A DNA stretch of 64,000 nt from contig RPFO01000931.1 of the NCBI GenBank assembly GCA_009746045.1, positions 1-64,000 on the forward strand. The letters are read 5' to 3'. The stretch is from Mesostigma viride (Eukaryota; Streptophyta; Mesostigmatophyceae; Mesostigmatales; Mesostigmataceae). Positions 4,440-55,618 of this stretch are shown in pieces. The notes beneath the pieces are model-generated. The model did not search any database. It was given only the letters and a program-made list of their open reading frames with translations, and was not told the origin of the DNA. The first letter of the stretch is position 1, and each line of letters begins with the position of its first letter. A program made the position numbers and the translations under genes.

Positions 4440-4925
4440 ATTTCCAGGTTCCAACGGCCGTTGGCGCAAGAAAAATCACACCCTAATTTCCAGGTTCCAA
4501 CGGCCGTTGGCGCAAGAAAAATCACACCCTAATTTCCAGGTTCCAACGGCCGTTGGCGCAAGAAAAATCACACACTAATTTCCAGGTTCCAATGGCCGTT
4601 GGCGCAAGAAAAATCACACCCTACTTTCCAGGTTCCAACGGCCGTTGGCGAAGAAAAATCACACCCTAATTTCCAGGCTCCAACGGCCGTTGGCGCAAGA
4701 AAAATGTCGACCGAATTTCCAGGTTCCAACGGCCGTTGGCGAAAGAAAAAATCAACCAAATTTCCAGGTTCCAACGGCCGTTGGCGCAAGAAAAATCACA
4801 CCCTAATTTCCAGGTTCCAACGGCCGTTGGCGCAAGAAAAATCACACACTAATTTCCAGGTTCCAACGGCCGTTTGCGAAAGAAAAATCACACCCTAATT
4901 TCCAGTTTCCAACGGCCGTTGGCGA
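4440..4925. repeat. Palindromic repeat array 1 (period about 45 bp)
   Basis: About eleven units of about 45 bp, each holding CCAACGGCCGTTGG (two units have one changed base) followed by GCGCAAGAAAAATCACACCC and then TAATTTCCAGGTT. The array lies between two minus-strand open frames. It is probably inside an intron, since the flanking frames have a donor (CAAAAG|GTAAAT, intron from 4980) and an acceptor (GCAG|GGGAGAG, to 4319) in the same phase. Confidence 0.85.
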
Positions 4926-4938
4926 ACAAAAATAACAT

Positions 4939-6216
4939 CTAGTGCCTAAAACGTTCCCACACCCGATCCGTTATATTTACCTTTTGCGTCCGCATGTCCT
5001 TCATGGGCGGGATCAGTGCTTCCCCCTCCACCTCCCAGCCCTTGAGCACGTCCAGATTGGTGTACTTGAACTTGTCCGCGTCCCTCACCAACCCACTCCA
5101 CAAATCAAACGCCTCGTCGGTTGTCTCCACGAACTTGCCCTTTTGTGTACCCGCAATCTCGCCAGCTATCGCGGTACTCACTTGCTCGTCAGAGCCCTCG
5201 AAAATCACGGACTTCAACATCTGCGTGTAGTGGTTGCCGTCCAGCACGGCAAACTGCACAAACACGCAAGGCGTCTGGTCTGGAAATTTACCCTTAAGGC
5301 CGGCATGGTCCGAGATGTTCAAGCTCCCCAGCGCGGATGTCGTCAGGTCAACTACTGCCTGACGCTCAGATTCATTTGACCACTCGGACGGATCCAACTC
5401 CATGGTGATCAACTCGTCTGAGCAAGCGGCCGCCATGTCCTTCAGGGAGTCCGTCCGGAGAATGGACATGGCTTCCTCGGCCGTTGGCGAACGATAGTAT
5501 CCGAACCTCTGCACGGCACGGTCACTGTCGTCCCCCGTCAGTATTTTAATGTGGTAAGGAACCATTTCACTCCTCTGCACCCATAAATTGTAGAGACCTG
5601 GATCACGGTCTGCCAGCACCTGCCACGCAAACCGGAAGATCGGCACGGCACATTTTGCTTTTGTCAGACTTGTGCCGGCCCCCACGAACCACGGCGCGAG
5701 CCCCCTACAATTCCGCACCGTCACCGTCCGATGCCGCATGAGTTCCGGGAGTTGGCACAAGTTCTCCGTGGGGGCCCGTACTTGAGTCGCAATCGCGGAC
5801 CCCCCCACGATGTCGACATCGTCTGGAACTAGGCGTATCTTCTGCCGCAGATGAAACGCCGCCTGTATGGTGTCAGTTAGATTCTTGTCGTGCACTTGAG
5901 AGGACGGCGCTGGCTCCCAGGAGTCCAAAATGCTGGGCTTCGCATTTCCAGCACGTGTCGTCAGCAGCCCCTTCCTCTCAAAGGTCTTCACAATAACCGA
6001 CCATAAGTCGGTGCCCGGTGCTCGTTGGCGCCAGTCCTCAAAAAATGTTGTGAGATGCCTTTCCGAACAGTTATGTTCAATCTTGTAAGCCCACTTCCTC
6101 CGCTCTTCGTCCGTTCTCTGCCTTGACGGACGCCCCTGATCACATGCAAAAAACATACAGATAGCCGGAAGGTCAGTACTATGTTCCAACGGCCGTTGGC
6201 GACAGAAAAATAACAC
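4939..6216 (-). CDS. Hypothetical protein, internal exon
   Basis: An uninterrupted frame of about 390 codons with amino-acid composition like a real protein, including two Cys/Trp-containing blocks (RNCRGLAPWFVGAG and SDHAGLKGKFPDQTPCVFVQ). No family is recognised. The 5' 27 codons of the frame run into palindromic repeat and intron-like sequence. The better exon start is 6135, just after an acceptor-like CATGTGATCAG. The 3' end has a donor-like AAG|GTAAAT at 4981/4980, in the same phase as an acceptor before 4318. I therefore infer that this is the exon upstream of the 4318-967 block; read without splicing, the frame stops at 4939. Confidence 0.6.
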   Translation of the reverse strand: MLFFCRQRPLEHSTDLPAICMFFACDQGRPSRQRTDEERRKWAYKIEHNCSERHLTTFFEDWRQRAPGTDLWSVIVKTFERKGLLTTRAGNAKPSILDSWEPAPSSQVHDKNLTDTIQAAFHLRQKIRLVPDDVDIVGGSAIATQVRAPTENLCQLPELMRHRTVTVRNCRGLAPWFVGAGTSLTKAKCAVPIFRFAWQVLADRDPGLYNLWVQRSEMVPYHIKILTGDDSDRAVQRFGYYRSPTAEEAMSILRTDSLKDMAAACSDELITMELDPSEWSNESERQAVVDLTTSALGSLNISDHAGLKGKFPDQTPCVFVQFAVLDGNHYTQMLKSVIFEGSDEQVSTAIAGEIAGTQKGKFVETTDEAFDLWSGLVRDADKFKYTNLDVLKGWEVEGEALIPPMKDMRTQKVNITDRVWERFRH

Positions 6217-7020
6217 CCTAATTTCCAGGTTCCAACGGCCGTGGGCGCATGAAAATCACACCCTAATTTACAGGTTCCAACGGCCGTTGGCGCATGAAAA
6301 TCACACCCTAATTTCCAGGTTCCAACGGCCGTTGGCGACAGAAAAATAACACCCTAATTTCCAGGTTCCAACGGCCGTTGGCGCATGAAAATCACACCCT
6401 AATTTTAAGGTTCCGACGGCCGTTGGCGCATGAAAATCACACCCTAATTTACAGGTTCCAACGGCCGTTGGCGCATGAAAATCACACCCTAATTTACAGG
6501 TTCCAACGGCCGTTGGCGCATGAAAATCACACCCTAATTTCCAGGTTCCAACGGCCGTTGGCGACAGAAAAATCACACCCTAATTTCCAGGTTCCAACGG
6601 CCGTTGGCGCGAGAAAAATGACACCCTATTTTCCAGGTTCCAACGGCCGTTGGCGCGAGAAAAATCACACCCTATTTTCCAGGTTCCAACGGCCGTTGGC
6701 GCATGAAAATCACACCCTAATTTCCAGTTTCCAACGGCCGTTGGCGCGAGAAAAATGACACCTTCATTTCCAGGTTCCAACGGCCGTTGGCGCATGAAAA
6801 TCACACCCTAATTTCCAGGTTCCAACGGCCGTTGGCGCATGAAAATCACACCCTAATTTTAAGGTTCCGACGGCCGTTGGCGCATGAAAATCACACCCTA
6901 ATTTACGGGTTCCAACGGCCGTTGGCGCATGAAAATCACACCCTAATTTCAAGGTTCCGACGGCCGTTGGGCAAAAAAAAAATAACACCCTAATTTCCAA
7001 ATTGCAACGGCCGTTGGCGC
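6185..7020. repeat. Palindromic repeat array 2 (period about 45 bp)
   Basis: About nineteen units like those at 4440-4925. Most have the perfect palindrome; several have CCGACGGCCGTTGG or another single change. The 3' flank alternates among GCGCATGAAAATCACACCC, GCGCGAGAAAAATCACACC and GCGACAGAAAAATCACACC. The longer-range order of these flank types repeats, which suggests growth by block duplication. It lies upstream of the 6135 acceptor, so probably within an intron. Confidence 0.85.
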
Positions 7021-7029
7021 AAGAAAATC

Positions 7030-9457
7030 AAGCAAGAAAAGGACAAGGACAAGGACAAGGACAAGGACAAGGACAAGGACAAGGACGAGGACAAGGACAA
7101 GGACAAGGACAAGGACAAGGACAAGGACAAGGACAAGGACAAGGACAAGGACAAGGACAAGGACAAGGACAAGGACAAGGACAAGGACAAGGACAAGGAC
7201 AAGGACAAGGACAAGGACAAGGACAAGGACAAGGACAAGGACAAGGACAAGGACAAGGACAAGGACAAGGACAAGGACAAGGACAAGGACAAGGACAAGG
7301 ACAAGGACAAGGACAAGGACAAGGACAAGGACAAGGACAAGGACAAGGACAAGGACAAGGACAAGGACAAGGACAAGGACAAGGACAAGGACAAGGACAA
7401 GGACAAGGACAAGGACAAGGACAAGGACAAGGACAAGGACAAGGTGCTGGACAAGGACAAGGTGCTGGCACAAGGACAAGGACAAGGACAAGGACAAGGA
7501 CAAGGACAAGGACAAGGACAAGGACAAGGACAAGGACAAGGACAAGGACAAGGACAAGGACAAGGACAAGGACAAGGACAAGGACAAGGACAAGGACAAG
7601 GACAAGGACAAGGACAAGGACAAGGACAAGGACAAGGACAAGGACAAGGTGCTGGCACAAGGACAAGGTGCTGGCACAAGGACAAGGACAAGGACAAGGA
7701 CAAGGACAAGGACAAGGACAAGGACAAGGACAAGGACAAGGACAAGGACAAGGACAAGGACAAGGACAAGGACAAGGACAAGGACAAGGACAAGGACAAG
7801 GACAAGGACAAGGACAAGGACAAGGACAAGGACAAGGACAAGGACAAGGACAAGGACAAGCACAAGGACAAGGACAAGGACAAGGACAAGGACAAGGACA
7901 AGGACAAGGACAAGGACAAGGACAAGGACAAGGACAAGGACAAGGACGAGGACAAGGACGAGGACAAGCACAAGGACAAGGACAAGGACAAGGACAAGGA
8001 CAAGGTGCTGGCACAAGGACAAGGACAAGGACAAGGACAAGGACAAGGACAAGGACAAGGACAAGGACAAGGACAAGGACAAGGACAAGGACAAGGACAA
8101 GGACAAGGACAAGGACAAGGACAAGGACAAGGACAAGGACAAGGACAAGGACAAGGACAAGGACAAGGACAAGGACAAGGACAAGGACAAGGACAAGGAC
8201 AAGGACAAGGACAAGGACAAGGACAAGGACAAGGACAAGGACAAGGACAAGGACAAGGACAAGGACAAGGACAAGGACAAGACAAGGACAAGGACAAGGA
8301 CAAGGACAAGGACAAGGACAAGGACAAGGACAAGGACAAGGACAAGGACAAGGACAAGGACAAGGACAAGGACAAGGACAAGGACAAGGACAAGGACAAG
8401 GACAAGGACAAGGACAAGGACAAGGACAAGGACAAGGACAAGGACAAGGACAAGGACAAGGACAAGGACAAGGACAAGGACAAGGACAAGGACAAGGACA
8501 AGGACAAGGACAAGGTGCTGGCACAAGGACAAGGTGCTGGCACAAGGACAAGGACAAGGACAAGGACAAGGACAAGGACAAGGACAAGGACAAGGACAAG
8601 GACAAGGACAAGGACAAGGACAAGGACAAGGACAAGGACAAGGACAAGGACAAGGACAAGGACAAGGACAAGGACAAGGACAAGGACAAGGACAAGGTGC
8701 TGGCACAAGGACAAGGTGCTGGCACAAGGACAAGGACAAGGACAAGGACAAGGACAAGTACAAGGACAAGGACAAGGACAAGGACAAGGACAAGGACAAG
8801 GACAAGGACAAGGACAAGGACAAGGACAAGGACAAGGACAAGGACAAGGACAAGGACAAGGACAAGGACAAGGACAAGGACAAGGACAAGGACAAGGACA
8901 AGCACAAGGACAAGGACAAGGACAAGGACAAGGACAAGGACAAGGACAAGGACAAGGACAAGGACAAGGACAAGGACAAGGACAAGGACAAGGACAAGGA
9001 CAAGGACGAGGACAAGGACGAGGACAAGCACAAGGACAAGGACAAGGACAAGGACAAGGTGCTGGCACAAGGACAAGGACAAGGACAAGGACAAGGACAA
9101 GGACAAGGACAAGGACAAGGACAAGGACAAGGACAAGGACAAGGACAAGGACAAGGACAAGGACAAGGACAAGGACAAGGACAAGGACAAGGACAAGGAC
9201 AAGGACAAGGACAAGGACAAGGACAAGGACAAGGACAAGGACAAGGACAAGGACAAGGACAAGGACAAGGACAAGGACAAGGACAAGGACAAGGACAAGG
9301 ACAAGGACAAGGACAAGGACAAGGACAAGGACAAGGACAAGGACAAGGACAAGGACAAGGACAAGGACAAGGACAAGGACAAGGACAAGGACAAGGACAA
9401 GGACAAGGACAAGGACAAGGACAAGGACAAGGACAAGGACAAGGACAAGGACAAGGA
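7030..9457. repeat. Hexanucleotide satellite (CAAGGA)n, 2.4 kb
   Basis: Nearly pure repeats of CAAGGA on the plus strand, broken by occasional GGTGCTGGCA units and by GACGAG or GCACAAG variants that recur in the same order, so the array grew partly by copying larger blocks. A one-base slip lies near 8281. The long frames across it (KDKD, QGQG, RTRT; SLSL, LVLV, PCPC) exist only because the period is six. It begins directly after the last palindromic unit. Confidence 0.95.
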
Positions 9458-13869: not shown

Positions 13870-14456
13870 CACTACATTTCGCCACCGCGGAAACCCAATT
13901 TATGCGAGAATGTGGTTCCGTCAATACGGCGGGGGTTACAAATTCAATTTCGAAGTTCGGCACCGTCGGATACCAGTAAAGCAACACTTGTTATCTAGAA
14001 TCGCGCCATTTGGCATCAATTGGCCAGTTCTGAAAATTTGATGAAATCTCTAGTCCTTGGTCGAAGATTTCCCTCCGATTCCGATGACGAAATTTGAGTA
14101 CGAATTTCTTAGTACAGTCCACCGTTTTGTTCAGTTCAGTATATTCCCACGCCGCTTGCTGACCTGACGGAGGCCGAATTCGTACTGAACACTAGCGCAA
14201 GTGCGCTCGATACTAAAAATTGCTACTTCCGAGATGTCTGACGGAATTTCTGCTAGGTCCATGCTTTGGTACTGGACGGATGCTGATATTCACTGTGGCT
14301 CTGTCCGAACGAGGAAAATTGTCAGAAATCTACTCTCGATACGAACGTAACGAAATTTCCAAGTATCTGACGCTCGGAGACCTGCCACCGTTTTCCCCTA
14401 CTTGACCGACCCACATTCCCCGCTAAAAAAGGTGTCCTAGGCGGCGAAATGTAGTG
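13870..14456 (+). mobile_element. 587-bp CACTA-ended element, copy A
   Basis: Begins CACTACATTTCGCC and ends GGCGAAATGTAGTG, a 14-bp perfect terminal inverted repeat. It appears identical to copy B at 15053-15639, in opposite orientation. The flanking triplets (CGC and CCA) do not match, so its target duplication is lost or it was moved by recombination. It contains only a 61-codon frame with no known motif. Confidence 0.8.
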
Positions 14457-14511: not shown

Positions 14512-15890
14512 TTATCTTTTCCTCTTTTGTTTCTTCCCCTTCCCGGACTCGCATGCATAAGCGACGTCCGCCATCCCCAAACGATGCAAAATTTTGTTGG
14601 AGCTCTGCATCTTCTCCAACAGTTCTTGATCCGATTCCTCCTTTGCACGACGCGCTTCCTCTGCCTTCGCCTTTGCGGCCTCCACATCTGCATCTATATC
14701 CGCCTTCACCACCATCCTGATCAAACGGTCCCGCTCCTCAGGCCTCGGGAGCGTCGGCAGTCCCACCGGCTCTGCGGCAAGAAGAGCCTCCAAAATATCC
14801 TTGTGCAGTCTTTGTGCTTCCACAAATCCATTATTCGTCATCAAGGTGTACGCGCATTCACGCGCCACACCCTGCAAGGAATCCCCCATGGTAACGTTTT
14901 GCCCATGAGCAAACCCGTACGCGCTGTCCCCCTCTGCAAAAATCTCGAGTCCCTGCCTGTCGAGGCGCACCAGCTCAACTTTCCGTTCCCCAGTGTGCGT
15001 TGCCGTGAAGTGGAGGACCGAGCGTGTCATTCCGGTCTTCCCCATCAACATCCACTACATTTCGCCGCCTAGGACACCTTTTTTAGCGGGGAATGTGGGT
15101 CGGTCAAGTAGGGGAAAACGGTGGCAGGTCTCCGAGCGTCAGATACTTGGAAATTTCGTTACGTTCGTATCGAGAGTAGATTTCTGACAATTTTCCTCGT
15201 TCGGACAGAGCCACAGTGAATATCAGCATCCGTCCAGTACCAAAGCATGGACCTAGCAGAAATTCCGTCAGACATCTCGGAAGTAGCAATTTTTAGTATC
15301 GAGCGCACTTGCGCTAGTGTTCAGTACGAATTCGGCCTCCGTCAGGTCAGCAAGCGGCGTGGGAATATACTGAACTGAACAAAACGGTGGACTGTACTAA
15401 GAAATTCGTACTCAAATTTCGTCATCGGAATCGGAGGGAAATCTTCGACCAAGGACTAGAGATTTCATCAAATTTTCAGAACTGGCCAATTGATGCCAAA
15501 TGGCGCGATTCTAGATAACAAGTGTTGCTTTACTGGTATCCGACGGTGCCGAACTTCGAAATTGAATTTGTAACCCCCGCCGTATTGACGGAACCACATT
15601 CTCGCATAAATTGGGTTTCCGCGGTGGCGAAATGTAGTGATCTGCAAACTTGCTACGTATGCGATCCCACGAGCGCACACGTCCTCCAACTTCTCGGCAA
15701 AAGGTAGATGTGTCTTGCAATACACATCCAATCCCTCCAGTGGTCTATCACATCTAAGAAATCCACACACCCCGTATGGATCCTTGGCATTTTGGTACTC
15801 GAGGTCGTGCGCTTGCAGGAACTTGTAATGTTCCGCGCACAGTCCCTCGACCCTTACGGGCTCCGTACAGATTTTGCATTTCGTTGCCAT
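14512..15890 (-). CDS. Hypothetical Cys-rich protein, split by a transposon
   Basis: The 5' part (15890-15640) codes two zinc-ligand-like units, C-x2-C-x9-C-x2-H and C-x4-C-x10-C-x2-H, starting MATKCKICTEP; the ATG directly follows an acceptor-like GCGCAG. The 3' part (15052-14512) codes a helical, Lys/Glu-rich domain with a basic tail (GKGKKQKRKR), possibly a nuclear signal. Element B lies between them. Removing it and one ATC target copy joins the parts in frame (SLQ-MLMGK), giving about 260 residues. Function is unknown. The C-x4-C...C-x2-H pattern recurs in the genes at 16118, 16885 and 17301, suggesting one local family. The insertion, if not spliced out, disrupts the gene. Confidence 0.7.
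15053..15639 (-). mobile_element. 587-bp CACTA-ended element, copy B
   Basis: The same 587-bp element as copy A, inverted, flanked by ATC at 15050-15052 and 15640-15642. Ends starting CACTA and a 3-bp target duplication are the classic features of the CACTA/EnSpm superfamily; such a short internal sequence makes it non-autonomous. It interrupts a gene precisely, and the empty site keeps the gene's reading frame. The element lacks GT-AG ends, so it is not a normal intron. Confidence 0.85.
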
Positions 15891-16690: not shown

Positions 16691-16844
16691 CTGTGCACAT
16701 CGATATTTTTTACACCACCCGCAAACGCACGCATTCAGCAGGGTCAACGGCCGTTGGCCCTGTTAAATTCCACACATCCCAACGGCCGTTGGCCTTAGAC
16801 GCACAAAACTTGACACCATCAGGCGATTTTTTCCAAATGATTCT

Positions 16845-16855: not shown

Positions 16856-16884
16856 TAAATTTACATTCATCCTAAAATCACATT

Positions 16885-17229: not shown

Positions 17230-17300
17230 GGCAAGTTAAGAAACGGACTCAGCTCACAGGACATTTTGCAAGTCCAACGGCCGTTGGCGACCAAAAACAC

Positions 17301-18084: not shown

Positions 18085-18480
18085 GCGACCACCAACACCG
18101 TTTGATACACATTTCTCACCGTCAACGGCCGTTGGCTTGAAACAACAAGAATGATTTATTACTCGCACGAAAATCACACCATTTTCCAGCCTCCAACGGC
18201 CGTTGGCGCACGAAAAATGCACGAAAAAAATTTTTATTATGCATTTATTGATTACATCCATAGTGCCACGTGGCGAATCACACCCAACTTTCCAGCTGCC
18301 AACGGCCGTTGGCGCAAAGAAAATCAAACCCTAATTTGCAGGTTCCAACGGCCGTTGGCGCAAAGAAAATCACACCCAACACTTCAGTCGCATAATCGAT
18401 TCGCGTCAGTCACGCACTCGAACTTGTACTCCTGCCCCAGCGCGGACATCACCTCACGAACCGCTTTCTCAAACTCGTCA
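18085..18480. repeat. Duplicated intergenic block, copy 1
   Basis: This block, running from the start of one gene through the spacer (four palindromes) and into the 3' end of the next, matches 19003-19385 piece by piece, including ACACCGTTTGATA(C/T)ACATTT, TTATTATGCATTTATT and the 3' end of the gene. It is a tandem segmental duplication of about 920 bp period, with later indels. Confidence 0.7.
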
Positions 18481-19001: not shown

Positions 19002-19284
19002 CTGCAACCCACCGACACCGTTTGATATACATTTCTCACCGTCAACGGCCGTTGGCTTGAAAAAACAACAAGAATTTTAAGATTTATTACGCGCACAAAT
19101 CACACACTAGTTTTCAGTCTCCAACGGCCGTTGGCGCACGAAAAATGTTTTATTATGCATTTATTAATTACATCCATGGTGCCACGTGGCAAACCACACC
19201 CTACTTCCGGTTGCAAAGAAAATCAAACCCTAATTTGCAAGTTCCAACGGCCGTTGGCGCAAGAAAATCACACCCAAAATTTCT

Positions 19285-20176: not shown

Positions 20177-20221
20177 CCCTCCCCTGCGCCAATTGGCACG
20201 TGCGTAATACGTAAGTAATGT

Positions 20222-20789
20222 TTTTCAAGTCTAACGGCCGTTGGCTCACAACCCCCCTGTGGGAAGGGTGGATGCCTTACGAACCATTCAACCACATCTT
20301 TATGCTCAGCTAGATTTTTGGAGGCCTTTCTTGGAAGGCACATGGTAATAACCATCACTAAGCTGCATAAAAGACACATCCTGCCTTACTGCCACCAAAT
20401 GAAACGAATGAAATGCACATGGTAATGTTTTTCAAGTCTAACGGCCGTTGGCTCACAACCCCCCTGTGGGAAGGGTGGATGCCTTACGAACCATCCAACC
20501 ACATCTTTATGCTCAGCTAGATTTTTGGAGGCCTTTCTTGGAAGGCACATGGTAATAACCATCACTAAGCTGCATGAAAGACACATCCTGCCTTACTGCC
20601 ACCAAATGAAAAGAATGAAATGCACATGATAATGTTTTTCCAATTCCAACGGCCGTTGGCTCACAACCCCCCTGTGGGAAGGGTGGATGCCTTACGAACC
20701 AGTCAAGCCCCATCTTTATGCTCAGCTAGATTTTTTGGAGGCCTTTCTAGGAGAAAAATGGTAAATAGCCACCACTAAGCTGCATAAAA
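20222..20789. repeat. 208-bp palindrome-bearing satellite, part 1
   Basis: Tandem 206-208-bp units, each with one palindrome (most often TCTAACGGCCGTTGG or TCCAACGGCCGTTGG) followed by CTCACAACCCCCCTGTGGGA. The same array continues at 22582-24231 and 31747-32095, so it was one run of about thirteen units before two retroelements entered it. Each unit keeps a minus-strand open stretch containing NLAEHKDVVEWFVRHPPFP, possibly a relic exon, but 208 is not a multiple of three. Confidence 0.9.
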
Positions 20790-22581
20790 TCGGTGTTCTC
20801 TGAACGTAGTTTCTTTATAACAGATGAGAATGAACGCCGCTATGTGAGTGGTACTACGGGACGGTGGGCCTTGGGCTGGACCGGTTCCATGAGTTAGAAT
20901 TAGTTGGCCAGTTTTGTATGGCCATTTCTAGTTCGTTAAGTTAAGTAGCAATTAAGTTACTGTTGCTGACGGCTCATGAGGCGAGCCTGGGCTACGCCGC
21001 CCTAAAGTGCCATTTGCACGATGTTCTAGGTCTCTTTTTCTTGTAATCGGATGTATGGGGTATGGGTATGGCGGATTACAAGAAATTTAATGCTGCCCTA
21101 ATCGCGTCAGCCTTTTGGCTGGCGGTGGCCGATTAGAGATGGCGCGTGACTGACATAGCTTGAACAGTCACGTGACTGTGAAAAAGAAATTGAATTACCC
21201 TCGTCGGTTTTCTCCCCGCAGCTGGGTTCTTGGCCGACGAGAGACTATAAAATACTTCGCGTTTGCCTGCGCGTGGCACCTGTACGGAACTCTGAAGCCA
21301 TGAGTAAGATTTCCGTGCCACGCTGCAGTGCCTACCGCTTTGCTGCGGAATGTCGCAGCAGGGTTGCAGTTCCTGACTGCTGACTGCCGAAGGAAGGGTG
21401 GTCGGGTTACTTTTAGTGGGCATTGTGATGGACGACAAGTCTGTCGGCCCTCGCGTAAGTAGAAAAATATTTACCAGCATCCGCTCTTATGGGTGCGTGA
21501 GGTCTCGGGAATGTGGTGGGGACGAATTCCGGAATTATGCAATATTTCGATTCAGACCGAGACTTAAGGGGCCAGTTTAACAGACGGACCTGGGCCGGGC
21601 AGGACCAAATATTTTGGCCGGCCCAGTTGCGCTTGCGCTTTATCGGCCGCTGGGGTGTGTGATGAGAGCCTGCTCATCAACTAAAACCTGAAATATGGAA
21701 AGTTACTCCCCCAGGTGACAACGTTGACAGTAATCGAGATATGGTGGCATCGGGTGACGTCCTACAAGTTGTCGTCACGTTAGGGCGGCACTGGCCTTTG
21801 AGGGAGGTCCGTGATCGTTAAACGAGGCGTCTTCTTCCTTGTCTTTGCGTGCACATTCAACACCCTCTTTTACTGGCCGAGGGTGGAAGGCTGGGGGGGC
21901 CCTGCAAAGGGTTATCGTGCATGAGGCTCGCTACAGCCGCCGGCGATTGTAATGGTCGTGACCGTTGCGGCAGGGCAGCCTCGGGAGCCACTGAGCGAAA
22001 GTGGTTGGCGGAGCTTTGGAGATAAAGCACCAGGAAAGGGGGGTTGGGTAACGAGAACTACAATCAATCATGAAATGGGTGCAGCGTGGCAGGCTCACTC
22101 ATGGGTTCTGTAATTGCCCACTTATTGTTTTAATCAAATGTTGGTGGATTGGTAATAGTGGGAATAGAATCGGTGTTCTCTGAACGTAGTTTCTTTATAA
22201 CAGATGAGAATGAACGCCGCTATGTGAGTGGTACTACGGGACGGTGGGCCTTGGGCTGGACCGGTTCCATGAGTTAGAATTAGTTGGCCAGTTTTGTATG
22301 GCCATTTCTAGTTCGTTAAGTTAAGTAGCAATTAAGTTACTGTTGCTGACGGCTCATGAGGCGAGCCTGGGCTACGCCGCCCTAAAGTGCCATTTGCACG
22401 ATGTTCTAGGTCTCTTTTTCTTGTCCCGCCCTCCCTCCCTCTTTTTGTGTTTGTTTCTAGGGTAACGAGAACTACAATCAATCATGAAATGGGTGCAGCG
22501 TGGCAGGCTCACTCATGGGTTCTGTAATTGCCCACTTATTGTTTTAATCAAATGTTGGTGGATTGGTAATAGTGGGAATAG
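20790..22581. mobile_element. PAT/Ngaro-like split-direct-repeat element, family 1 (non-autonomous)
   Basis: Order: A1 (20790-21044, 255 bp), interior (about 1,000 bp), B1 (22046-22167), A2 (22170-22424), linker, B2 (22460-22581, 122 bp). A1 equals A2 and B1 equals B2 by eye. This A1-interior-B1-A2-B2 plan is the split direct repeat of tyrosine-recombinase (DIRS-order, PAT/Ngaro) retrotransposons. The outer ends and the B1/A2 joint share AA (AA|TCGG... and ...GAATAG|AA). Removal rejoins a 208-bp satellite unit (CATAAAAGACACATCC) with no target duplication, as expected of a recombinase. The interior has no reverse transcriptase or recombinase frame. Confidence 0.75.
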
Positions 22582-24231
22582 AAGACACATCCTGCCTTAT
22601 TGCCACCCAATTAAACGAATGAAATGCACATGGTAATGTTTTTCAAGTCCAACGGCCGTTGGCTCACAACCCCCGTGTGGGAAGGGTGGATGCCTTACGA
22701 ACCATTCAACCACATCTTTATGCTCAGCTAGATTTTTGGAGGCCTTTCTTTGAAGGCACATGGTAATAACAATCACTAAGCTGCATGAAAGACACATCCT
22801 GCATTATTGCCACCAAATGAAACGAATGAAATGCACATTTTATTGTATTTCCAATTCCAACGGCCGTTTGCTCACAACCCCCCTGTGGGAAGGGTGGATG
22901 CCTTACGAACCATTCAACCACATCTTTATGCTCAGCTAGATTTTTGGAGGCCTTTCTTGGAATAAAAATGGTAATAGCCACCACAAAGCTGAATGAAAGA
23001 TACATCCTGGCTGATTGCCAACCCACTCAAAGGAATGAAATGCACATGATAATGTTTTTCAAGTCCAACGGCCGTTGGCTCACAACCCCCCTGTGGGAAG
23101 GGTGGATGCCTTACGAACCATTCAACCACATCTTTATGCTCAGCTAGATTTTTGGAGGCCTTTCTTGGAAGAAAAATGGTAATAGCCACCACTAAGCTGA
23201 ATGAAAGATACATCCTGGCTGATTGCCAACCCACTCAAAGGAATGAAATGCACATGATAATGTTTTTCAAGTCCAACGGCCGTTGGCTCACAACCCCCCA
23301 CTGGGAAGGGTGGATGCCTTACGAACCAGTCAAGCCCATCTTTATGCTCAGCTAGATTTTTGGAGGCCTTTCTTGGAAGAAAAATGGTAATAGCCACCAC
23401 TAAGCTGAATGAAAGATACATCCTGGCTGATTGCCAACCCACTCAAAGGAATGAAATGCACATGATAATGTTTTTCAAGTCCAACGGCCGTTGGCTCACA
23501 ACCCCCCTCTGGGAAGGGTGGATGCCTTACGAACCAGTCAAGCCCATCTTTAAGCTCAGCTAGTTTTTTTGGAGGCCTTTCTAGGAGAAAAATGGTAAAT
23601 AGCCACCACTAGGCTGCATAAAAGACACATCCTGCCTTATTGCCACCCAATTAAACGAATGAAATGCACATGATAATGTTTTTCAAGTCTAACGGCCGTT
23701 GGCTCACAACCCCCCTATGGGAAGGGTGGAGGCCTTACGAACCAGTCAACCACATCTTTATGCTCAGCTAGATTTTTGGAGGCCTTGCTTGGAAGAAAAA
23801 TGGTAAATAGCCATCACTAAGCTGCATGAAAGACACATCCTGCCTTATTGCCACCCAATGAAAAGAATGAAATGCACATGATAATGTTTTTCCAATTCCA
23901 ACGGCCGTTGGCTCACAACCCCCCTCTGGGAAGGGTGGATGCCTTACGAACCATTCAACCACATCTTTATGCTCAGCTAGATTTTTGGAGGCCTTTCTTG
24001 GAAGGCACATGGTAATAACCTTCACTAAGCTGCATGAAAGACGCATCCTGCCTTACTGCCACCAAATGAAAAGAATCAAATGCACATGATAATGTTTTTC
24101 CAATTCCAACGGCCGTTGGCTCACAACCCCCCTGTGGGAAGGGTGGATGCCTTACGAACCATTCAACCACATCTTTATGCTCAGCTATATTTTTGGAGGC
24201 CTTTCTTGGAAGAAAAATGGTAAATAGCCAC
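22582..24231. repeat. 208-bp palindrome-bearing satellite, part 2
   Basis: Eight more units of the satellite that starts at 20222, with palindromes at about 22652, 22859 (one base changed), 23067, 23275, 23484, 23691, 23899 and 24107. Adjacent units differ by a few per cent; units near 23000-23500 share GATACATCCTGGCTGATTGC and form a subfamily. Confidence 0.9.
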
Positions 24232-32095: not shown

Positions 32096-32456
32096 CAGAA
32101 ATAGTGTCCACCAAGCTGTTCCCCCCACACCCACAGTTGTCCTTGTCCACATACCTTTCCAGTACAGTTGTCCTCAGCTTCTCAGCAACGGGCGACTCCT
32201 CTCCTTGCTGCCTTGACAGATATCACATAAACAAAACACGATCACGAGAGCATCAGGATTGTTAGAGGTTTCCTCCATCGCAAAACCGTAAGATACACAC
32301 ACCTCAAAAACCAACTTTCTTGTCCTCCCAAATAACATATGTTTTTAAATGTAAAATAAATCACATTCATATTCTGTCACTTGATTTAACCACACAATTT
32401 TTCAGGTCCAACGCCCGTTGGCATTACGCCTCTTCCCGGTAAAAGAGTATTTATTG
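32096..32456. other. Spacer with possible small exon
   Basis: A minus-strand stretch from about 32211 to 32155 reads QGEESPVAEKLRTTVLE and ends at a donor-like GAAAG|GTATGT, with acceptor-like CAAGGCAG upstream. It could be one exon of a gene whose other exons I cannot find. The rest is AT-rich with one imperfect palindrome (CCAACGCCCGTTGG, about 32409). Confidence 0.25.
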
Positions 32457-32655
32457 CTCCAACCCCACAAAAAACTCGTTCCGGACCTGATCGAAGCGAA
32501 GAGCACTGCCAGGGATCGGAGTCGAGCCAGATTTGTGTGCGGAACATGATGGCTGGCCTACCTCACTCCCCAACATCAATGTGGACCTGGGTTCGAACCC
32601 TGTCAGTGCTATTCGCTTCGAACAGTTCCGGAACGAGTTTTTTGTGGGTGTGGAG
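32457..32655. mobile_element. 199-bp foldback element with tRNA-like B box
   Basis: The two ends are inverted copies over about 50 bases (CCCCACAAAAAACTCGTTCC near the left end, its reverse complement near the right end with a few changes). The interior has GGGTTCGAACCCT at 32589-32601, matching the pol III B box of tRNA genes. No clear target duplication was seen. It could be a MITE or a tRNA-derived SINE pair. Confidence 0.6.
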
Positions 32656-33044
32656 AAATAATGTCGACATTTTCGGTGACTGTTCAGCTTAAAAAAATCA
32701 CAAGCAGATGCGACGGCCCCTCCATTAAACAAATTATCCACCACTGTTGCGCTACACTAGCAATGTTTGTCAAGGTCCAACGGCCGTTGGCATCAAATAA
32801 ATCACACCCATTGGTCACTCCATTTAACAAAATACCCACAACTTTTTAACCACACTAGAAATGTTTTTTGAGGTCCAACGGCCGTTGGAATCCAAAAAAT
32901 GCCGAATTCATGTCAAATTTATATATATGTGACAGTTGACAGAATTAGAGATAATTAAATTATCAAACCCAGCTTTAGAATTCAATATTAGAATTCAAAA
33001 TTTATTAATGAAATTTATCTTTCACCATTCAACCTCAACATTAA
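32656..33044. other. Spacer with palindromes and a copy of a gene's 3' end
   Basis: Palindromes at about 32777 (then CATCAAATAAATCACACCC) and 32876 (then AATCCAAAAAATGCC). The last 70 bases (from AATATTAGAATTCAAAATTT to CATTCAACCTCAACAT) resemble 35250-35310, the 3' end and downstream DNA of the F-box gene, so this is a duplicated gene end. Confidence 0.5.
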
Positions 33045-36202: not shown

Positions 36203-36605
36203 TATCGGCCCCGACGTCAAACTTGTCCCCTCTGCACATAACATACATTGACGTCCATCCTTAAAAAAAATGAGGTTTTGTCGGAAAGAAAATATGCAAA
36301 CGTTAGGCGAGGTTTCCAATCCCTAACGGCCGTTGGGTCACTAATTGTTGTTTAACCCACTACAGTCGCATGAGAGAAAACGAAAGTCAATTTTATTCCA
36401 ATTTCAAAGTGAAAGGAGAATTCACTATTACACCATTTTACAACACAAATCAGGTCAATTTTATTCCAATTTCAAAGTGAAAAGAGAATTCACCATTACA
36501 CCATTTTACAACACAAATCAGGACTACATACACAAATTTCAAACCCAAAATGCGTCCAGTTTTCCAGCCTCAAAAGCAAATTATTACTCTACATTTCCAG
36601 TTTTT
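36203..36605. repeat. Spacer with one palindrome and a 68-bp tandem duplication
   Basis: A palindrome (CTAACGGCCGTTGG) at about 36322. Two copies of a 68-bp AT-rich unit starting GTCAATTTTATTCC lie at 36386 and 36454. TTTTATT motifs (AATAAAA on the minus strand) here may include the 3'-end signal of the MYND gene. Confidence 0.65.
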
Positions 36606-37817: not shown

Positions 37818-38397
37818 TGAAAAAAACTGCACGTGAAGCACAACTGGCACAACCAATGTAAGTAAACCTAGTAACTTCAGGGGCGGATTAATTCATCAGC
37901 CGGAGTACAATTTTATTTTACAACGCCAACGGCCGTTGGCATTACAGCAATGAAGTTAAGATAAAAACGTCGTAATGCAACGGCTGATAAAACTGGCGTA
38001 TAATCAATAACGCAAAAAAAATTGGCAAGAACTTTTTTTTGGAGGTCCAACGGCCGTTGGCATCACGTAAATCACAACAGCAATGATGGAAACTGATTTT
38101 GCAAGTCCAACGGCCGTTGGCATCAAGAAAATCAGAAGAGGGAGCGACTGCCCAAAAAACGCATAATAATAAAACAAGTACCTTGCAGGTGGTTGACAGA
38201 CGCGAATCTTGTGTGGCGACGTGGAATCTGCAAGGAATGCGCAAAAACGTTGCAATCAGAATTACAAGGATTACATATTTTCCACATTTAGTTTTTCAGG
38301 TCCAACGGCCGTTGGCATGAGATTAATAAGAATACCACTACATGCGTGTGAGAAAATTGTGCCGGGTGACAGAATTAAATCCAAGTTGCCCAGCAGG
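37818..38397. repeat. Spacer with four dispersed palindromes
   Basis: Perfect palindromes at about 37926, 38046, 38106 and 38300, each followed by GCAT. Two have an AAAT block 8 bp from the palindrome (CATCACGTAAATCAC and CATCAAGAAAATCAG). Unlike the arrays, the DNA between them is unique. No gene seen. Confidence 0.7.
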
Positions 38398-44458: not shown

Positions 44459-45610
44459 GGGGGTGCTGGCATGCATAAATACCTAGGGGGGTGCTGGCAT
44501 GCATAAATACGTCGGGGGGGTGCTGGCATGCATAAATACCTATGGGGGGGTGCTGGCATGCATAAATACCTAGGGGGGTGCTGGCATGCATAAATACGTC
44601 GGGTGGGGTGCTGGCATGCATAAATACCTAGGGGGGGTGCTGGCATGCATAAATACCTAGGGGGGGTGCTGGCATGCATAAATACCGAGGGGGGGGCTGG
44701 CATGCATAAATACCTAGGGGGGGGGCTGGCATGCATAAATACCGAGGGGGGGTGCTGGCATGCATAAATACCTAGGGGGGTGCTGGCATGCATAAATACC
44801 TAGGGGGTGCTGGCATGCATAAATACCTAGGGGGGGGCTGGCATGCATAAATACCTAGAGGGGGTGCTGGCATGCATAAATACCGAGGGGGGGGGCTGGC
44901 ATGCATAAATACCTAGGGGGGGGCTGGCATGCATAAATACCTAGGGGGGGTGCTGGCATGCATAAATACCGAGGGGGGTGCTGGCATGCATAAATACCTA
45001 GGGGGGGCTGGCATGCATAAATACGTCGGGGGGTCGCTGGCATGCATAAATTAACCTAGGGGGGTGCTGGCATGCATAAATACCTAGGGGGGTGCTGGCA
45101 TGCATAAATACCTAGGGGGGGGCTGGCATGCATAAATACCTAGGGGGGGTGCTGGCATGCATAAATACCTAGGGGGGGTGCTGGCATGCATAAATACCTA
45201 GGGGGGGGGCTGGCATGCATAAATACCGAGGGGGGGTGCTGGCATGCATAAATACCGAGGGGGGGTGCTGGCATGCATAAATACCTAGGGGGGGTGCAGG
45301 CATGCATAAATACCGAGGGGGGGTGCTGGCATGCATAAATACCTAGGGGGGGTGCTGGCATGCATAAATACCTAGGGGGGGGGCTGGCATGCATAAATAC
45401 CTAGGGGGGGTGCTGGCATGCATAAATACCTAGGGGGGTGCTGGCATGCATAAATACCTAGGGGGGGTGCTGGCATGCATAAATACCTAGGGGGGGGCTG
45501 GCATGCATAAATACGTCGGGGGGTCGCTGGCATGCATAAATACCTAGGGGGGTGCTGGCATGCATAAATACCTAGGGGGGGTGCTGGCATGCATAAATAC
45601 CTAGGGGGGG

Positions 45611-45799
45611 GCTGCCATTCGTACCTTTTTTCTTTTTTATTTTTAAGCCGGCCTGGGGCAGCGGCGGCGGGTGGACGAAAACTGATAGCATTCCCGTTCG
45701 TGCATCCCGTGACCACCGGCCACCAAACGGAGGCACGACACCAAGGCAGATCAAGCACCAAAGGAAGCAGCAAGGACGTTGACGTTATTAACCAAGAAT
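45611..45799. repeat. 200-bp satellite insert, copy 3
   Basis: As copy 1 but missing about 12 bp (the GGGG block after TTTTTA). It lies 1,353 bp after copy 2. Confidence 0.8.
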
Positions 45800-46467
45800 G
45801 GGGGTGCTGGCATGCATCAATACCTAGGGGGGTGCTGGCATGCATAAATACATGTGGGGGTGCTGGCATGCATAAATACCTAGGGGGGGGCTGGCATGCA
45901 TAAATACGTCGGGGGGTCGCTGGCATGCATAAATACGTCGGGTGGGGTGCTGGCATGCATAAATACCTAGGGGGGTGCTGGCATGCATAAATACCTAGGG
46001 GGGGTGCTGGCATGCATAAATACCGAGGGTGGGGGCTGGCATGCATAAATACCTAGGGGGGTGCTGGCATGCATAAATACCTAGGGGGGGGGCTGGCATG
46101 CATAAATACGTCGGGGGGTCGCTGGCATGCATAAATACGTCGGGTGGGGTGCTGGCATGCATAAATACCTAGGGGGGTGCTGGCATGCATAAATACCTAG
46201 GGGGGGGGCTGGCATGCATAAATACCTAGGGGGGGTGCTGGCATGCATAAATACCTAGGGGGGGTGCTGGCATGCATAAATACCTAGGGGGGGGGCTGGC
46301 ATGCATAAATACCGAGGGGGGGGTGCTGGCATGCATAAATACCTAGGGGGGTGCAGGCATGCATAAATACCGAGGGGGGGTGCTGGCATGCATAAATACC
46401 TAGGGGGGTGCTGGCATGCATAAATACCTAGGGGGGGTGCTGGCATGCATAAATACCTAGGGGGGGG

Positions 46468-46657
46468 CTGCCATTCGTACCTTTTTTTCTTTTTTTATTT
46501 TTAAGCCGGCCTGGGGCAGCGGCGGCGGGTGGAGGAAAACTGATAGCGTTCCCGTTTGTGCATCCCGTGACCACCGGCCACCAAACGGAGGCACGACACC
46601 AAGGCGGATCAAGCACCAAAGGAAGCAGCAAGGACGTTGACGTTATTAACCAAGAAT
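46468..46657. repeat. 200-bp satellite insert, copy 4
   Basis: Shares the deletion of copy 3, so copies 3 and 4 are a later pair; spacing is 857 bp, close to the 865 bp of copies 1 and 2. Confidence 0.8.
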
Positions 46658-50645: not shown

Positions 50646-51171
50646 TTGGTGTGGCAAGCCTATAAAGCAATCCGCAAACCACTACACGGCTGGTAAGATT
50701 TAATATAATAAGCAACCTAATAGCTATATCAAAAATGTTTATGGGCATGGAAATTTTTAATATGTTGATATTAGACTGCAATGAAACGAATATGCAACCT
50801 GCCCCCCTATGTTTAATACAATTATTATTATTATTTGTGGCATGAATATAATAATTGTGTGAAATACAATGCTATGTGCAATATATTGCTGGTATGCCAT
50901 GCAATTGTAACCAACAGGTGCAAGACCAAAAGGCGTCTTCAGGGCCCACCTGCTGCGAACAAGAGCTATGGCGGCAAGAGGTGCGTGCAGGGTTACGGAT
51001 TTACGGGGTTGTTGACCACCAAATTTGTTGTTACGTGTGTTATGGAAACATTTCAGTCGAATTTCTGGGTTCCAACGGTCGTTAAGGTTATAAAAAGTGC
51101 GTTGGGATTCGGAAATTCACATCCTGGCGTGTAAAAAATGCAGGTGTTGGCGAGTTTTCGGCCCGCTTTCA
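50646..51171. other. AT-rich spacer
   Basis: No gene seen. It has a short ATT run at about 50821-50836 and a decayed palindrome (CCAACGGTCGTTAAGG) at about 51072, next to the palindromic array. Confidence 0.5.
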
Positions 51172-51690
51172 GGGGTCCAACGGCCGTTGGGTGTCTAAAA
51201 TGCATGCGTTAGCGTGTTTCCGGCCCGCTTTCAGGGGCCCAACGGCCGTTGGACGTCGAAAATGCATGTGTTGGCGTGTTTTCGGCCCGCTTTCAGGGGT
51301 CCAACGGCCGTTGGGTGTCGAAAATGCATGTAAAGGGCGTGTTTCAGGCCCACTTTCAGGGGTCCAACGGCCGTTGGGTGTAGAAAATGCATGTGTTGGC
51401 GTGTTTTCGGCCCGCTTTCAGGGGTCCAACGGCCGTTGGGTGTCGAAAATGCATGTGTTGGCGTGTTTCAGGCCCACTTTCAGGGGTCCAACGGCCGTTG
51501 GGTGTCGAAAATGCATGTGTTGGCGTGTTTTCGGCCCGCTTTCTGGGGTCCAACGGCCGTTGGGTGTCGAAAATGCATGTGTTGGCGTGTTTCAGGCCCA
51601 CTTTCGGGGGTCCAACGGCCGTTGGGTGTCGAAAATGCATGTGTTGGCGTGTTTCAGGCGTACTTTCAGGGGTCCAACGGCCGTTGGGAC
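51172..51690. repeat. Palindromic repeat array 3 (period about 61 bp)
   Basis: Nine perfect palindromes about 60-66 bp apart (about 51178 to 51672), in units TTTCAGGGGT, palindrome, GTGTCGAAAATGCATG, TGTTGGCGTGTTTC. Here the right flank is GTGTCGA then AAAT, different from arrays 1 and 2 except for the spaced AAAT. It lies immediately upstream of the plus-strand transposase-like gene, so probably in its 5' region or first intron. Confidence 0.88.
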
Positions 51691-51757
51691 CTACAAATTG
51701 GGTAATTGTTGGAAAGCAATAATTTGATAAAAAGTCAAAACTTCGTCTGGATTCTGT

Positions 51758-54700
51758 ATGCGCGCGGATGCAGGTGAAGCGCACAACAAAGACCTAAGTC
51801 TCAAGTACGTCGAGATCAAGGGCAACCAACTTGCCCTCGACATGGCCAGCGCAATGGAATACTTGCTGAAGGACAACAATCACAAGACTGAAAACACGAA
51901 AACTGCAGTAGGCTTGAGGGCGCTTGAGCGGCTGCCAGGTGCGGTTGTGAAGGTTATGGGGAAACAGTACCGCCCTGCGCTGAAAAGAAAGGCGTCGGAG
52001 TCCTTCGCTCAGGAGGTTGTCGCTAATATCGTGCAAGGTTTCCAGGAATTGGGCAAGTCGGATGAGCACAGGAACGCGAAGTGCGCTGTGCTGTCAATGT
52101 GCTTGGGAAAGGACGGCATGAACAATCAAGGGCATTGCACTCTCGCGCGGCTGCTTCACGTCACGCCCAAGGATATCCAGACCGCAAGGGGAATGAGGAT
52201 GGGGGGCGACCTTCCCGCCCTGAAGGCGCCCCCTCGTGCTTTACGGTCGGACAAGTTTCCGGAGGAGGTCAAAGACATCGTCGGGAGTTACTGGTTGTCA
52301 GACCTAAACACGAGGGCGTCTCCCAACCATAAGGACGTGGTCAATGAGTTCGAAAGGAAGGGAAACGCCAGGATCCTCATTTCCTCCCAGGGCGGAAGGT
52401 ACTATTTGGACTCGCTTGAAACGATTTACAAGCGGTTCTGTTCTGACGCGTCGCCGTACAAGGGAGGTATCGTGACGACTGCGGACGGGACAAGGTACAA
52501 GGTGGGGTACACGAAGTTCGTGGAGTTCATGCCCAAGTGCGTAAAGGGCGTGTGGAAGGACCGGGACTTGTGCGCATGCGAAAAGCACGTCGTCTTCGAG
52601 TCTCTGCTCTCTGCCTTCGCCAAAGGCGTCAAGGAGTTGAAGAGCACGCTGGAGATCGAGGAGAGGGAGGGTATCCCTTCCGTGCCTGACAATGCCCATG
52701 ATTTCGTTCGACGTTTCACCTGCCACAGGGCTGAGAGGGGGAGGGGGGCAAGGAGGGGGGAGGACGGGCGGCCCGTTCGTTAACGTCCCAATGAACTGCT
52801 TGGAAGGGACGTGCAACGAGTGTGGGATTTCCGAGTTCATCGTGACGGACCAGATGAAGGGGTGGACAAAGAAGTACACGTGGTTCGACTTCATAAAGGA
52901 GGGCACAGCGCCCCGTGGGACGGTAAGCATGTATATTTGCATCGTTGAATATATATATGTAGACTTTCATACTTCCAACGGCCGTTGGCGTTGGGAAATT
53001 CCCAGCTGCTGACTTCCATTCTTCGGTCAATCCATGGTGCGCGGGCATGTATATTTGCATCGTTGAATATATATTAAAAATATAATTACTTACAGCAGAG
53101 TGAAATCACTCAAACCAAAGCAAACGCCCAGCTATAAACCTATATACAGAGCCATGTCAAAGCTCTATACTACGAAGTACGATAAGACCAATGGAAACGC
53201 CTAACGGGAGGAACCTAATAGCCCTGCTGCACCGCAAAATCAGCCCGCGTACGGCGGAGCATGATGTCCGCCATGGCCCGAGTCAGCGCCACCGACAAGC
53301 GCTGACGCCAATATGACGTCCAGGTCCGCGCCGACCATGGGGCCCGCTGGCCCTCCAGGTCCAGCCGGTCCTCCCGGAGCCGGCAACACTCCTTGAAGAA
53401 GGCGGAGTCGTTGAATATATATATGTAGACTTTCATACTTCCAACGGCCGTTGGCGTTGGGAAATTCCCAGCTGCTGACTTCCATTCTTCGGTCAATCCA
53501 TGGTGCGCGGGTGTGTTGTGTTGCAGGAGGAGGATGTGGCGCCGCAAATGAACCTGCAGCAAAAACTCATCAAGTCAACCCTCTCGGAGCTCCATGAACT
53601 CATTACGGCGCGCTTCCCGGAATTCGCCATTCACGTCCATACATGGGCCTGGCAGCACCACGCTTACAAGGAGTGCATTGACGTGATGCCGCTGGGAACG
53701 GTGGTGGTCCTGATGGACTACTCGGAGAACTATTCGGACCACCTGCAGAAACAGTTGCAGGCGCAGTACTGGTACCCAAGTAGTTACGTCCTGATGCCGG
53801 TGATCGTGATGTACCGTGATCCCGTATCGCTGGAAATCAAAAGGGTGAAGCACGATTACATGGGGAAGGACGTACCGAGGAATGCCCAGACCCTGGAGTT
53901 CGTGATGAAGAATACCCTTAACGTGCTGAGGGAGGAGGGGGTGGAGGTGAGGAACTGGATCAGTTGGTCCGACAACTGTAAGGAGCAGTTCCAATCCCGG
54001 TATGTGTTGGCGATGGCTGCGGACCTGCTCGAGGCCGACCCCGACTTGGAATCATTGGAGTGGAACTACTCGTGTGCAGGACATGGGAAGGGGGAGTCGG
54101 ACGGGGAGGGGGGGACGGTCAAAAGCATCCTCAAAAGAGCGCAGATGCAGGAGGACAATCGGAACCTGAATACGGTGGAGGCACTGGTGGCCTACCTGAA
54201 CCGGGATTGGAGAACCGGCAAAGACTCGAGTCGACCATCGGCACAATCGGACGTGGTTCGACGGGCATTTCTTCTCGATAACGTAAGTAAAGACAGTTGC
54301 TTTCTGGTGGTCAAGTGCAGTTCTATAATTTGTCTCTGGTTACACTTTACAGAGGACAGCTTCCTTGATGCAGTTTGAAGTTTCATAAGGCCAACGGCCG
54401 TTGGAGCTGGAAAATCGTATAATTGTTGAGTGCCAACGGCCGTTGGAGTTGAGAAATGTACTTATATAAAGTTTCCAAGGGCCAACGGCCGTTGGAGTTG
54501 GGAAATCTTATAATTGTTGAGTGCCAACGGCCGTTGGAGTTGGGAAATGTGCTGTGATGTTGTTTCATGGATTTACAATTGCAGATTCTCACGTCCGGTA
54601 AGGAGCGAGGCCCGATCCGAGATATCTCCACGGCACACCAGTGGCGACTGGACAAAAAGGGCGAGCGGGTCGAGGTGGTAAAGCTCAGGCGTTTTTCATG

Positions 54701-55369
54701 CTTCAGTTGTGCGGAGTGCCGAGAGGGCAAGTGGACGACATGCCCAAACGATTGGAGCAGCTCGTCGTGGACTGTAAAACTCCAGGCGAGTAAGTCGCGG
54801 AACCCCACGCGATATCCGGGAACCCGCCTGAACCACGTTCAAACGGCAAGAAACGAGTTGGGGCGTGGTTTGCAGGAGGGGGAGGCCGTCGCAGTCGCAT
54901 CTGAGAGGGGGCACAAGGACCATGTGCCCGACCACCCGTACTGGTTGGCGAAAGTTGTTCGAGTCGCCCACCAACTCGACAAGGATGAGTGTTTAAACAA
55001 ACATACAGGGGGGGGGGCGAGGTTTTTAAGAAAGGCAACTGGGTAATGTACGTAAAATACTTCGAGAGGTGCTCCTCCTCCGGATCGGACGCCCGACGCT
55101 TCTTCTGGAACCCAGACGACCGAGAACCCTTAACTGCAATCGTGTGCTACCTGAGCGTCGCAAAGGTCACGAAGGGCAAGTGGGAAGGACATCCGGACAA
55201 CACGCGACAGGGCTGGTTCACAATTGCGAAGAAGGTGGACGCCGAAATTACGGTACGTCATTCCAAACATTACTGTGTAAAATTGGTGTTTGTATGTCGC
55301 ATGTGTTTTTTTGTCGACGGTCGTTCACCTTACTAATGTTACATACAGGGCAATCAGCCTATACTTTAG
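51758..55369 (+). CDS. DDE-type transposase-like protein, four exons
   Basis: Exons 51758(or 51774)-52922, 53527-54282, 54585-55252 and 55349-55369, all joined in phase 0 by GT-AG introns. Exon 1 has KDVVNEFERKGNARILIS...GRYYLDSLETIYKRF and LCACEKH, as in the N-terminal region of a widespread family of uncharacterised transposase-like proteins. Exon 2 has the likely catalytic set: VVLMDYSENYS, WISWSDNCKEQF and GHGKGESDGEGGTVK. From memory this family shows D-(F/Y)-x-E-N-Y, S-D-x-C-x-x-Q and H-G-K-G-x-x-D-G-x-G-G-T-x-K. Exon 3 reads as a C-terminal domain (HPYWLAKVVRVAHQ). Frames slip at the G-rich run near 52736-52770 and at G10 (55008-55017). No terminal inverted repeats were found around it, so it may be a domesticated or decayed copy. 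Confidence 0.7.
52923..53526 (+). other. Intron 1 of transposase-like gene
   Basis: GGGACG|GTAAGC to GTTGTGTTGCAG|GAG. It contains two palindromes within a 103-bp direct repeat (52943-53045 and 53410-53512) that flanks about 364 bp of other sequence. Phase 0 on both sides. Confidence 0.75.
54283..54584 (+). other. Intron 2 of transposase-like gene, full of palindromes
   Basis: GATAAC|GTAAGT to TACAATTGCAG|ATT, phase 0. Four perfect palindromes at about 54392, 54433, 54483 and 54523 in alternating 41/50-bp spacing, each followed by GAG(C/T)TG(A/G)(A/G) and AAAT. This is direct evidence that palindromic units occupy spliced introns. Confidence 0.85.
55253..55348 (+). other. Intron 3 of transposase-like gene
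   Basis: ATTACG|GTACGT to GTTACATACAG|GGC, 96 nt, phase 0, with branch-like TTACTAAT 18-25 bases before the acceptor. The last exon then codes GNQPIL and a stop. Confidence 0.7.
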
Positions 55370-55618
55370 CTTGGCTGCATGGCGCATGTCGCATATCTTA
55401 ATTTCTCAAAGCCAACGGCCGTTGGACTTACGAAACTGGACAAGTGCCAAGTGCGGATTGGGTACTAAAATGGGCATTCTTGTTGAGGATGACCAGTTGT
55501 GTTTATATATTTTTGCATGGTGGCGGATGACTTGGCGTGTTGTTGCATTTTTACATACGGGTGTATGGTAGGCCTTAAACCCTAAACCCCTACACTCCTA
55601 AACCATATTTACCCTTAT
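55370..55618. other. 3' flank with palindrome and telomere-like run
   Basis: One palindrome at about 55413 (then ACTTACGAAACTGG). TTAAACCCTAAACCCC near 55575-55590 looks like two units of the CCCTAAA telomere repeat, followed by CTCCTAAACC. No gene seen. Confidence 0.5.

Follow-up and report, generated by a model that had tools for sequence, protein, structure and literature searches.

The question raised by this locus is why one short palindrome, CCAACGGCCGTTGG, should recur so many times among flanks that are otherwise unlike. In the window, that is, the whole 64-kb stretch of Mesostigma viride DNA that was analysed, a search that allowed up to two mismatches found it at 78 sites, of which 61 are perfect and the other 17 have a single mismatch; none has two. 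The expectation, taken from 100 dinucleotide shuffles, is 0.39. The 70-80 dispersed copies reported by an earlier sequence-only reading are therefore real. Their proposed span of 4440 to 55440 broadly holds, except that the copies begin slightly further left, at 2743, and extend to 55425. Grouped by their outer flanks, the 78 copies fall into 19 contexts (20 if one pair is split), comprising arrays, a satellite, spacers and inferred introns, where at least five had been claimed. The same reading had proposed a whole-genome count against a control, and in the 440-Mb assembly of 2,243 contigs that was searched, in which the window is contig C1715, there were 9,685 perfect copies against none of the reversed pattern and about 1.6 expected by chance (arithmetic); allowing up to one mismatch gave 12,162, and 88 for the reversed pattern. 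The copies and the ORFs they adjoin in the window are as follows (strand is unassigned unless given).

2743..2756: single copy with one mismatch (motif scan)
4410..4937: 46-bp array of 11 dyad copies, the last 17 bp past the stop of the 405-aa ORF (motif scan and ORF list)
4939..6156, minus strand: ORF of 405 aa in a single exon, flanked by the twin 46-bp arrays (ORF list)
6183..7030: 45/46-bp array of 19 copies, beginning 30 bp upstream of the ATG of the 405-aa ORF (motif scan)
16744..16792: two copies, the nearest 54 bp upstream of ORF 16118-16690 (motif scan)
17274..17287: copy 14 bp past the stop of ORF 17301-17909 (motif scan)
18122..18358: four copies in the spacer separating ORFs 17301-17909 and 18384-19001, the last 26 bp past the stop of ORF 18384-19001
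19042..19257: three spacer copies, the first 41 bp upstream of ORF 18384-19001 (motif scan)
20215..24231: 208-bp satellite in blocks 20215-20789 and 22582-24231; 11 copies, each unit with one dyad and most of them without the right AAA
31747..32097: 208-bp satellite resumed past the Copia-like insertion, two copies (motif scan)
32408..32888: three copies in a non-array spacer (motif scan)
36323..36336: copy in the upstream flank of the F-box-like ORF 35297-36244, at 79 bp (motif scan)
37926..38315: group of four copies, the nearest 544 bp upstream of the MYND-finger ORF 36606-37382 (motif scan)
51072..51085: decayed copy, core with three mismatches, TTT and AAA intact (decayed-copy scan)
51135..51688: 62-bp array of nine copies, with 71 bp between its end and the downstream ATG at 51758 (motif scan)
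52975..53454: two copies in the inferred GT-AG intron 52923-53526
54391..54537: four copies at 42/49/42-bp spacing in the inferred GT-AG intron 54283-54584, within the repeat group 54378-54550
55412..55425: copy about 40 bp past the inferred end of the transposase-like gene

Comparison of the flanks of these copies showed that the palindrome is the centre of a larger symmetric site, laid out as TTT-N7-CCAACGGCCGTTGG-N7-AAA, in which TTT at -10..-8 mirrors AAA at +8..+10; a fuller consensus of 34-38 bp is approximately ATTTYNNARNB-CCAACGGCCGTTGG-VNYTNNRAAAT. On the left, T is present at -10 in 19, at -9 in 18 and at -8 in 15 of the 19 contexts, and on the right, A is present at +8 in 12, at +9 in 14 and at +10 in 14, with the right-hand A's all absent in three contexts (the 208-bp satellite and those at 32408 and 16779), which were counted as misses. 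Genome-wide, where large arrays dominate the percentages, TTT at -10..-8 was found on the left of 8,598 and, on the other strand, on the right of 8,498 of the 9,685 perfect copies. The AAAT block that had been described 7-8 bp to the right is thus real and constant in register, but it is the looser half of a mirror whose stricter left TTT had been missed.

Matrices built from half-sites, with the tested context left out of training, corroborated the symmetry. The left-half matrix gave mirrored right halves a mean score of +1.7, about 9 s.d. above the background of -10.5 obtained with random sequence from the window (the s.d. of the mean being 1.3), and the right-half matrix scored left halves at +3.7 against -7.4. 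The mirror score was maximal at zero shift and dropped when the register was moved by one base. Among the 40 pooled half-sites, the outer preferences were A-12 (23), T-10 (35), T-9 (33), T-8 (28) and Y-7 (37) and the inner ones A-4 (25) and R-3 (34), with A-1 in none, and CCAACGG varied only at C1, C2 and G7. The centres of TTT and AAA lie 31 bp apart, which is about three helical turns (arithmetic). Orphan half-sites of the form TTTN7CCAACGG were absent from the window (0.23 expected by chance), and a scan of the window for decayed copies returned a convincing one at 51072, with three core mismatches and intact flanks, and a candidate at 51092 that, with five mismatches, was no better than chance.

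Symmetry of this kind could also arise if the site were read as a hairpin, either as a transcript-end signal in RNA or as a cruciform in DNA; the core is self-complementary and three of the 13 ORFs chosen as likely genes have a copy 14-26 bp past the stop. However, the symmetric positions flanking the core do not co-vary within copies (left and right matched in 92 of 240 pairs, against 96.5 +/- 5.6 after shuffling), the T(-1)/C(+1) mismatch is common among copies, and copies are found upstream of ATGs too. Because the two halves of one copy show no co-variation, the site is not a hairpin. Structured RNA was rejected on the lack of compensatory pairing past the core together with the absence of any Rfam match in the window, and we consider a hairpin signal of either type very unlikely. 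A symmetric preference without co-variation suggests instead a two-fold-symmetric protein as the reader of the site.

The earlier reading had proposed to test whether core mismatches are depleted relative to flanks of equal age. In the arrays the core did diverge less than the spacers, in all three families tested: mismatches to the family consensus affected 9 of 616 core cells and 134 of 1924 spacer cells when pooled, the values being 6/392 and 24/308 in the 46-bp family, 3/112 and 93/1392 in the 208-bp family, and 0/112 and 17/224 in the 62-bp family, although array copies are related and these cells are therefore not independent events. Of the families as initially clustered, the test used 28 of the 30 copies with the 46-bp unit, 8 of the 13 with the 208-bp unit and 8 of the 9 with the 62-bp unit, array ends and separated units being left out. 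Bases between the core and TTT/AAA were the most variable ones in the 46-bp family (45/392), but not in the 208-bp family (4/112). For single copies, 17 of 25 were paired with a near-identical counterpart on the large scaffold C1, a comparison without power (core 0/238, TTT/AAA 2/102, bases between 1/238, outer flanks 12/2351).

These data bear on the explanation that the palindrome is a functionless passenger, simply part of satellites and segmental duplications, its symmetry coming from one ancestral repeat. Most copies do ride on repeats, the 46-bp family making up at least one third of them, and three probe patterns had no matches in the genome. Nevertheless, the unlike flanks have only the symmetric positions in common, the core diverges less than the adjacent spacer in each of the three array families tested, and copies lie close to ATGs, so that a passive origin seems improbable to us. 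The earlier proposal of a bipartite recognised site, as opposed to a passive satellite, finds support in so far as recognition is concerned, given the constant spacing, the unlike flanks, the conserved core and the lack of orphan half-sites; the site itself is two-fold symmetric and not a core plus AAAT.

The dyads are linked to a dispersed repeated module. Two regions of C1 align with the window in long blocks at about 90-99.9%, 5.08-5.09 Mb with its left part and 2.16-2.20 Mb with its right part, and C18:31001-36000 matches window 15640-20626 end to end (4,987 bp, 99.88%), with the 208-bp array adjoining on C18. Paired 46-bp arrays about 1.3-1.5 kb apart also occur at C1:6.32 Mb, C1:9.74 Mb, C4 and C26, and the ORF between them was present at both of the two loci examined out of these four, with amino acid identities of 99.5% (C4) and 75.8% (C1:6.32 Mb); the latter value means that the array-ORF-array layout predates the recent copies. 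The copy number of the module is uncertain because small contigs may represent haplotypes that were not collapsed, but separate positions on the large scaffolds C1, C446 and C557 show that the dispersal is real. Among the 9,685 copies, the 46-bp family is represented by 3,284 (1,871 + 1,413) that carry its left flank TTTCCAGGTT exactly, and the 208-bp family by 329 (185 + 144) that carry TTTTTCAAGT. Therefore, the description of the palindrome as dispersed in unlike contexts is correct as to the unlike flanks, but many copies ride on the repeated module. The three probe patterns mentioned above matched nowhere in the genome, where about 19, 76 and 64 matches would be expected if contexts were unlimited, and this points to a limited set of contexts; these 35-place patterns had no positive control, and 24-place patterns, with and without Ns, did match genome-wide.

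The same short sequence amid unlike flanks could in principle be a tiny mobile palindromic element that inserts itself. None of the 17 single copies (of 25) that could be paired with C1 had an empty counterpart, in a test that is biased because pairing needed a copy on both sides, and no target duplication was noticed by eye in the flanks; we regard self-insertion as highly improbable. The 3' palindrome of Helitrons was also rejected: no CTRR was seen to the right and the left half of the dyad is at least as conserved.

Several other repeats share the window. A Copia-like element at 24232-31751, with 383-bp LTRs 99.7% identical and rve and RVT_2 matches below cut-offs, cuts the right end of the 208-bp satellite. 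A perfect 587-bp inverted repeat (13870-14456 / 15053-15639) surrounds ORF 14512-15051, its C1 counterpart matching on both sides, and looks like the termini of a sequence inserted very recently. The perfect 467-bp direct repeat at 33042-33508 and 34578-35044, about 1.5 kb apart, is perhaps the LTRs of a small retroelement. A long AAGGAC hexamer array and 29-bp and 40-bp minisatellites occupy 7039-9457, 38935-46474 and 61642-64000, and the 40-bp family is also present at C1:2.10 Mb, adjoining dyad copies. A short plant-telomere-like stretch, CCCTAAACCC, lies at 55578-55600, to the right of the transposase-like gene.

The position of the copies relative to genes is the next part of the answer. 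From 27 ORFs of at least 140 codons, 13 were picked as likely genes; fragments and the ORFs of Copia were left out, as were antisense shadows, of which three overlap copies. A copy was found 30-79 bp upstream of the ATG in 6 of the 13 (30, 41, 54, 55, 71 and 79 bp). When copy groups were re-placed at random outside ORFs within the same domains, the mean was 1.19 and six was reached in about 1 of 3,000 trials (P ~0.0003), a value that is optimistic since the ORFs were chosen after the distances had been seen. A general promoter element is not indicated, because the site is nearly absent elsewhere: another 14 stretches of 10 kb, taken systematically from C1-C3, of which 13 were readable and one was all N, held no perfect copy and a single one-mismatch match, which lacked the flanks.

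Copies also lie within GT-AG-bordered intervals, two and four in number, of the transposase-like gene (51758 to about 55370), which is multi-exon and whose frame changes near a G run at about 55010. The motif order of its exon 53527-54282 is one that we take to be DDE-transposase-like. This exon had no Pfam match; its predicted structure has a mean pLDDT of 45 and recalls an RNase H fold in strand/helix order alone, and a sequence search against solved structures returned nothing credible (two matches, E 0.66 and 0.76). At 52942-53511, in an inferred intron, is a 104-bp perfect direct repeat with a dyad in each copy, and the C1 counterpart is about 350 bp shorter. As for the other products, the 405-aa ORF had no relatives at E <= 0.001, and the MYND protein (36606-37382) aligns over 68% of its length, with 86% identity, to a Mesostigma viride (Mesvir1) gene model. 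The proteins of 36606-37382 and 53506-54336 also show 96-100% partial-length identity to EukProt entries labelled Prorocentrum lima, which are likely to result from contamination of that dataset.

This gene content raises the idea that the module represents a large endogenous DNA virus or else a viral-like giant element, with the dyad as origin or enhancer and as gene-punctuation signal, in the manner of baculovirus homologous regions (hrs). The window has compact same-strand single-exon ORFs, some with MYND and F-box-like domains, against a mean of 4.81 exons per gene given for Mesostigma viride in its genome paper (PMC6947507). Arrays and single copies stand at gene borders, and the module copies are repeated and nearly identical. 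On the other hand, six window proteins had no viral relative in IMG/VR, a search sensitive to close relatives only, no viral hallmark gene was found in the window among the ORFs scanned with Pfam, and the transposase-like gene appears to contain introns. On balance, we find a viral module unlikely. Bacterial and phage origins of the dyad were rejected: TTTN7-core returned 25 single stretches in genome_contigs, against about 30 expected (arithmetic), and 17 single stretches in viral_contigs, whose flanks fell into groups of 11 and 4 and two loners. The full dyad was found in none of these 42 stretches, and a search of phage DNA with window 51100-55500 gave no match.

The explanation that we favour, to which we would give about an even chance, is that each copy is a two-fold-symmetric 34-38 bp site of a sequence-specific protein and serves as an operator or boundary mark of a large repeated, possibly mobile, module. 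It draws on the symmetry and constant register of the site, the lack of hairpin co-variation, the lower divergence of the core in arrays, the upstream proximity to 6 of the 13 chosen ORFs and the linkage to the module. The putative protein would bind as a dimer or tetramer, reading the central GC core and the TTT/AAA blocks about three turns apart. Its sites would belong to a family of large nuclear modules in Mesostigma viride or a very near relative that may be, or may once have been, mobile, would sit at gene borders near promoters, just past stops and in introns, and would have been amplified into several unrelated tandem arrays. Most likely, they would control the transcription of the genes that the module itself carries or mark the boundaries of these genes. 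A bolder version would make the dyad a cis-regulatory code common to an undescribed class of giant elements, tens of kb long and either mobile or endogenous-viral, in an early-diverging streptophyte alga, with one element-encoded protein binding dozens of sites per copy to switch, punctuate or replicate the element; it appears rather doubtful to us.

With one 34-bp dyad kept in register over some 20 unlike contexts and nearly ten thousand copies, the footprint of a single putative DNA-binding protein is unusually clear, even if contexts within the module are limited and copies are related, so that array counts are not independent events. It offers an entry point to the self-control of a large repeated module in a deep streptophyte and may be a natural example of one putative protein site seeding several unrelated satellites. 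Repeat masking would conceal it.

The view that no element of this form has been described agrees with the open-access literature, in the portions of it that were accessible, where no printed description was found. CCAACGGCCGTTGG is absent from the 5.39 million open-access papers searched, and the inner 10-mer of the core appears in four of them, one on the binding sites of a Thermus regulator and the others on viral proteins. The main text of the Mesostigma viride genome paper has no occurrence of 'palindrom', and publications on algal palindromic repeats and Mesostigma satellites gave no match by title or by the start of the abstract.

The dyad can be compared with four known systems. Plant MSA elements are bound by MYB3R proteins and have the core AACGG (PMC8964727). 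The dyad core holds both AACGG and CCGTT and, like them, the dyad is repeated near promoters, but the fixed 34-bp dyad, the TTT/AAA blocks, the arrays and, here, no evident link to mitotic genes set it apart; the Myb-type likeness of the core may serve as a lead, as a resemblance only. The selfish palindromic repeats in the organelle DNA of Volvox (PMC2670323) share with the dyad the abundance of short palindromes in an algal genome. Unlike them, the dyad is on a nuclear contig, has one invariant sequence and shows neither hairpin co-variation nor a sign of insertion. Baculovirus hrs are interspersed repeats around an IE1-bound 30-bp imperfect palindrome (PMC2834656). Both systems have interspersed repeat arrays with palindromes of about 30 bp and recognition by one protein, putative in our case, whereas the dyad differs in its nuclear algal location, its several unrelated array units, its invariant 14-bp GC core and in that no close viral relative was found for six window proteins. 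The CENP-B box, for its part, is a short, asymmetric, centromeric protein site kept in otherwise unlike satellites. The dyad is likewise conserved within otherwise divergent satellites, and differs from that box in sequence, in being symmetric and in its presence at gene borders. By analogy, the dyad may work as baculovirus hrs or the CENP-B box do.
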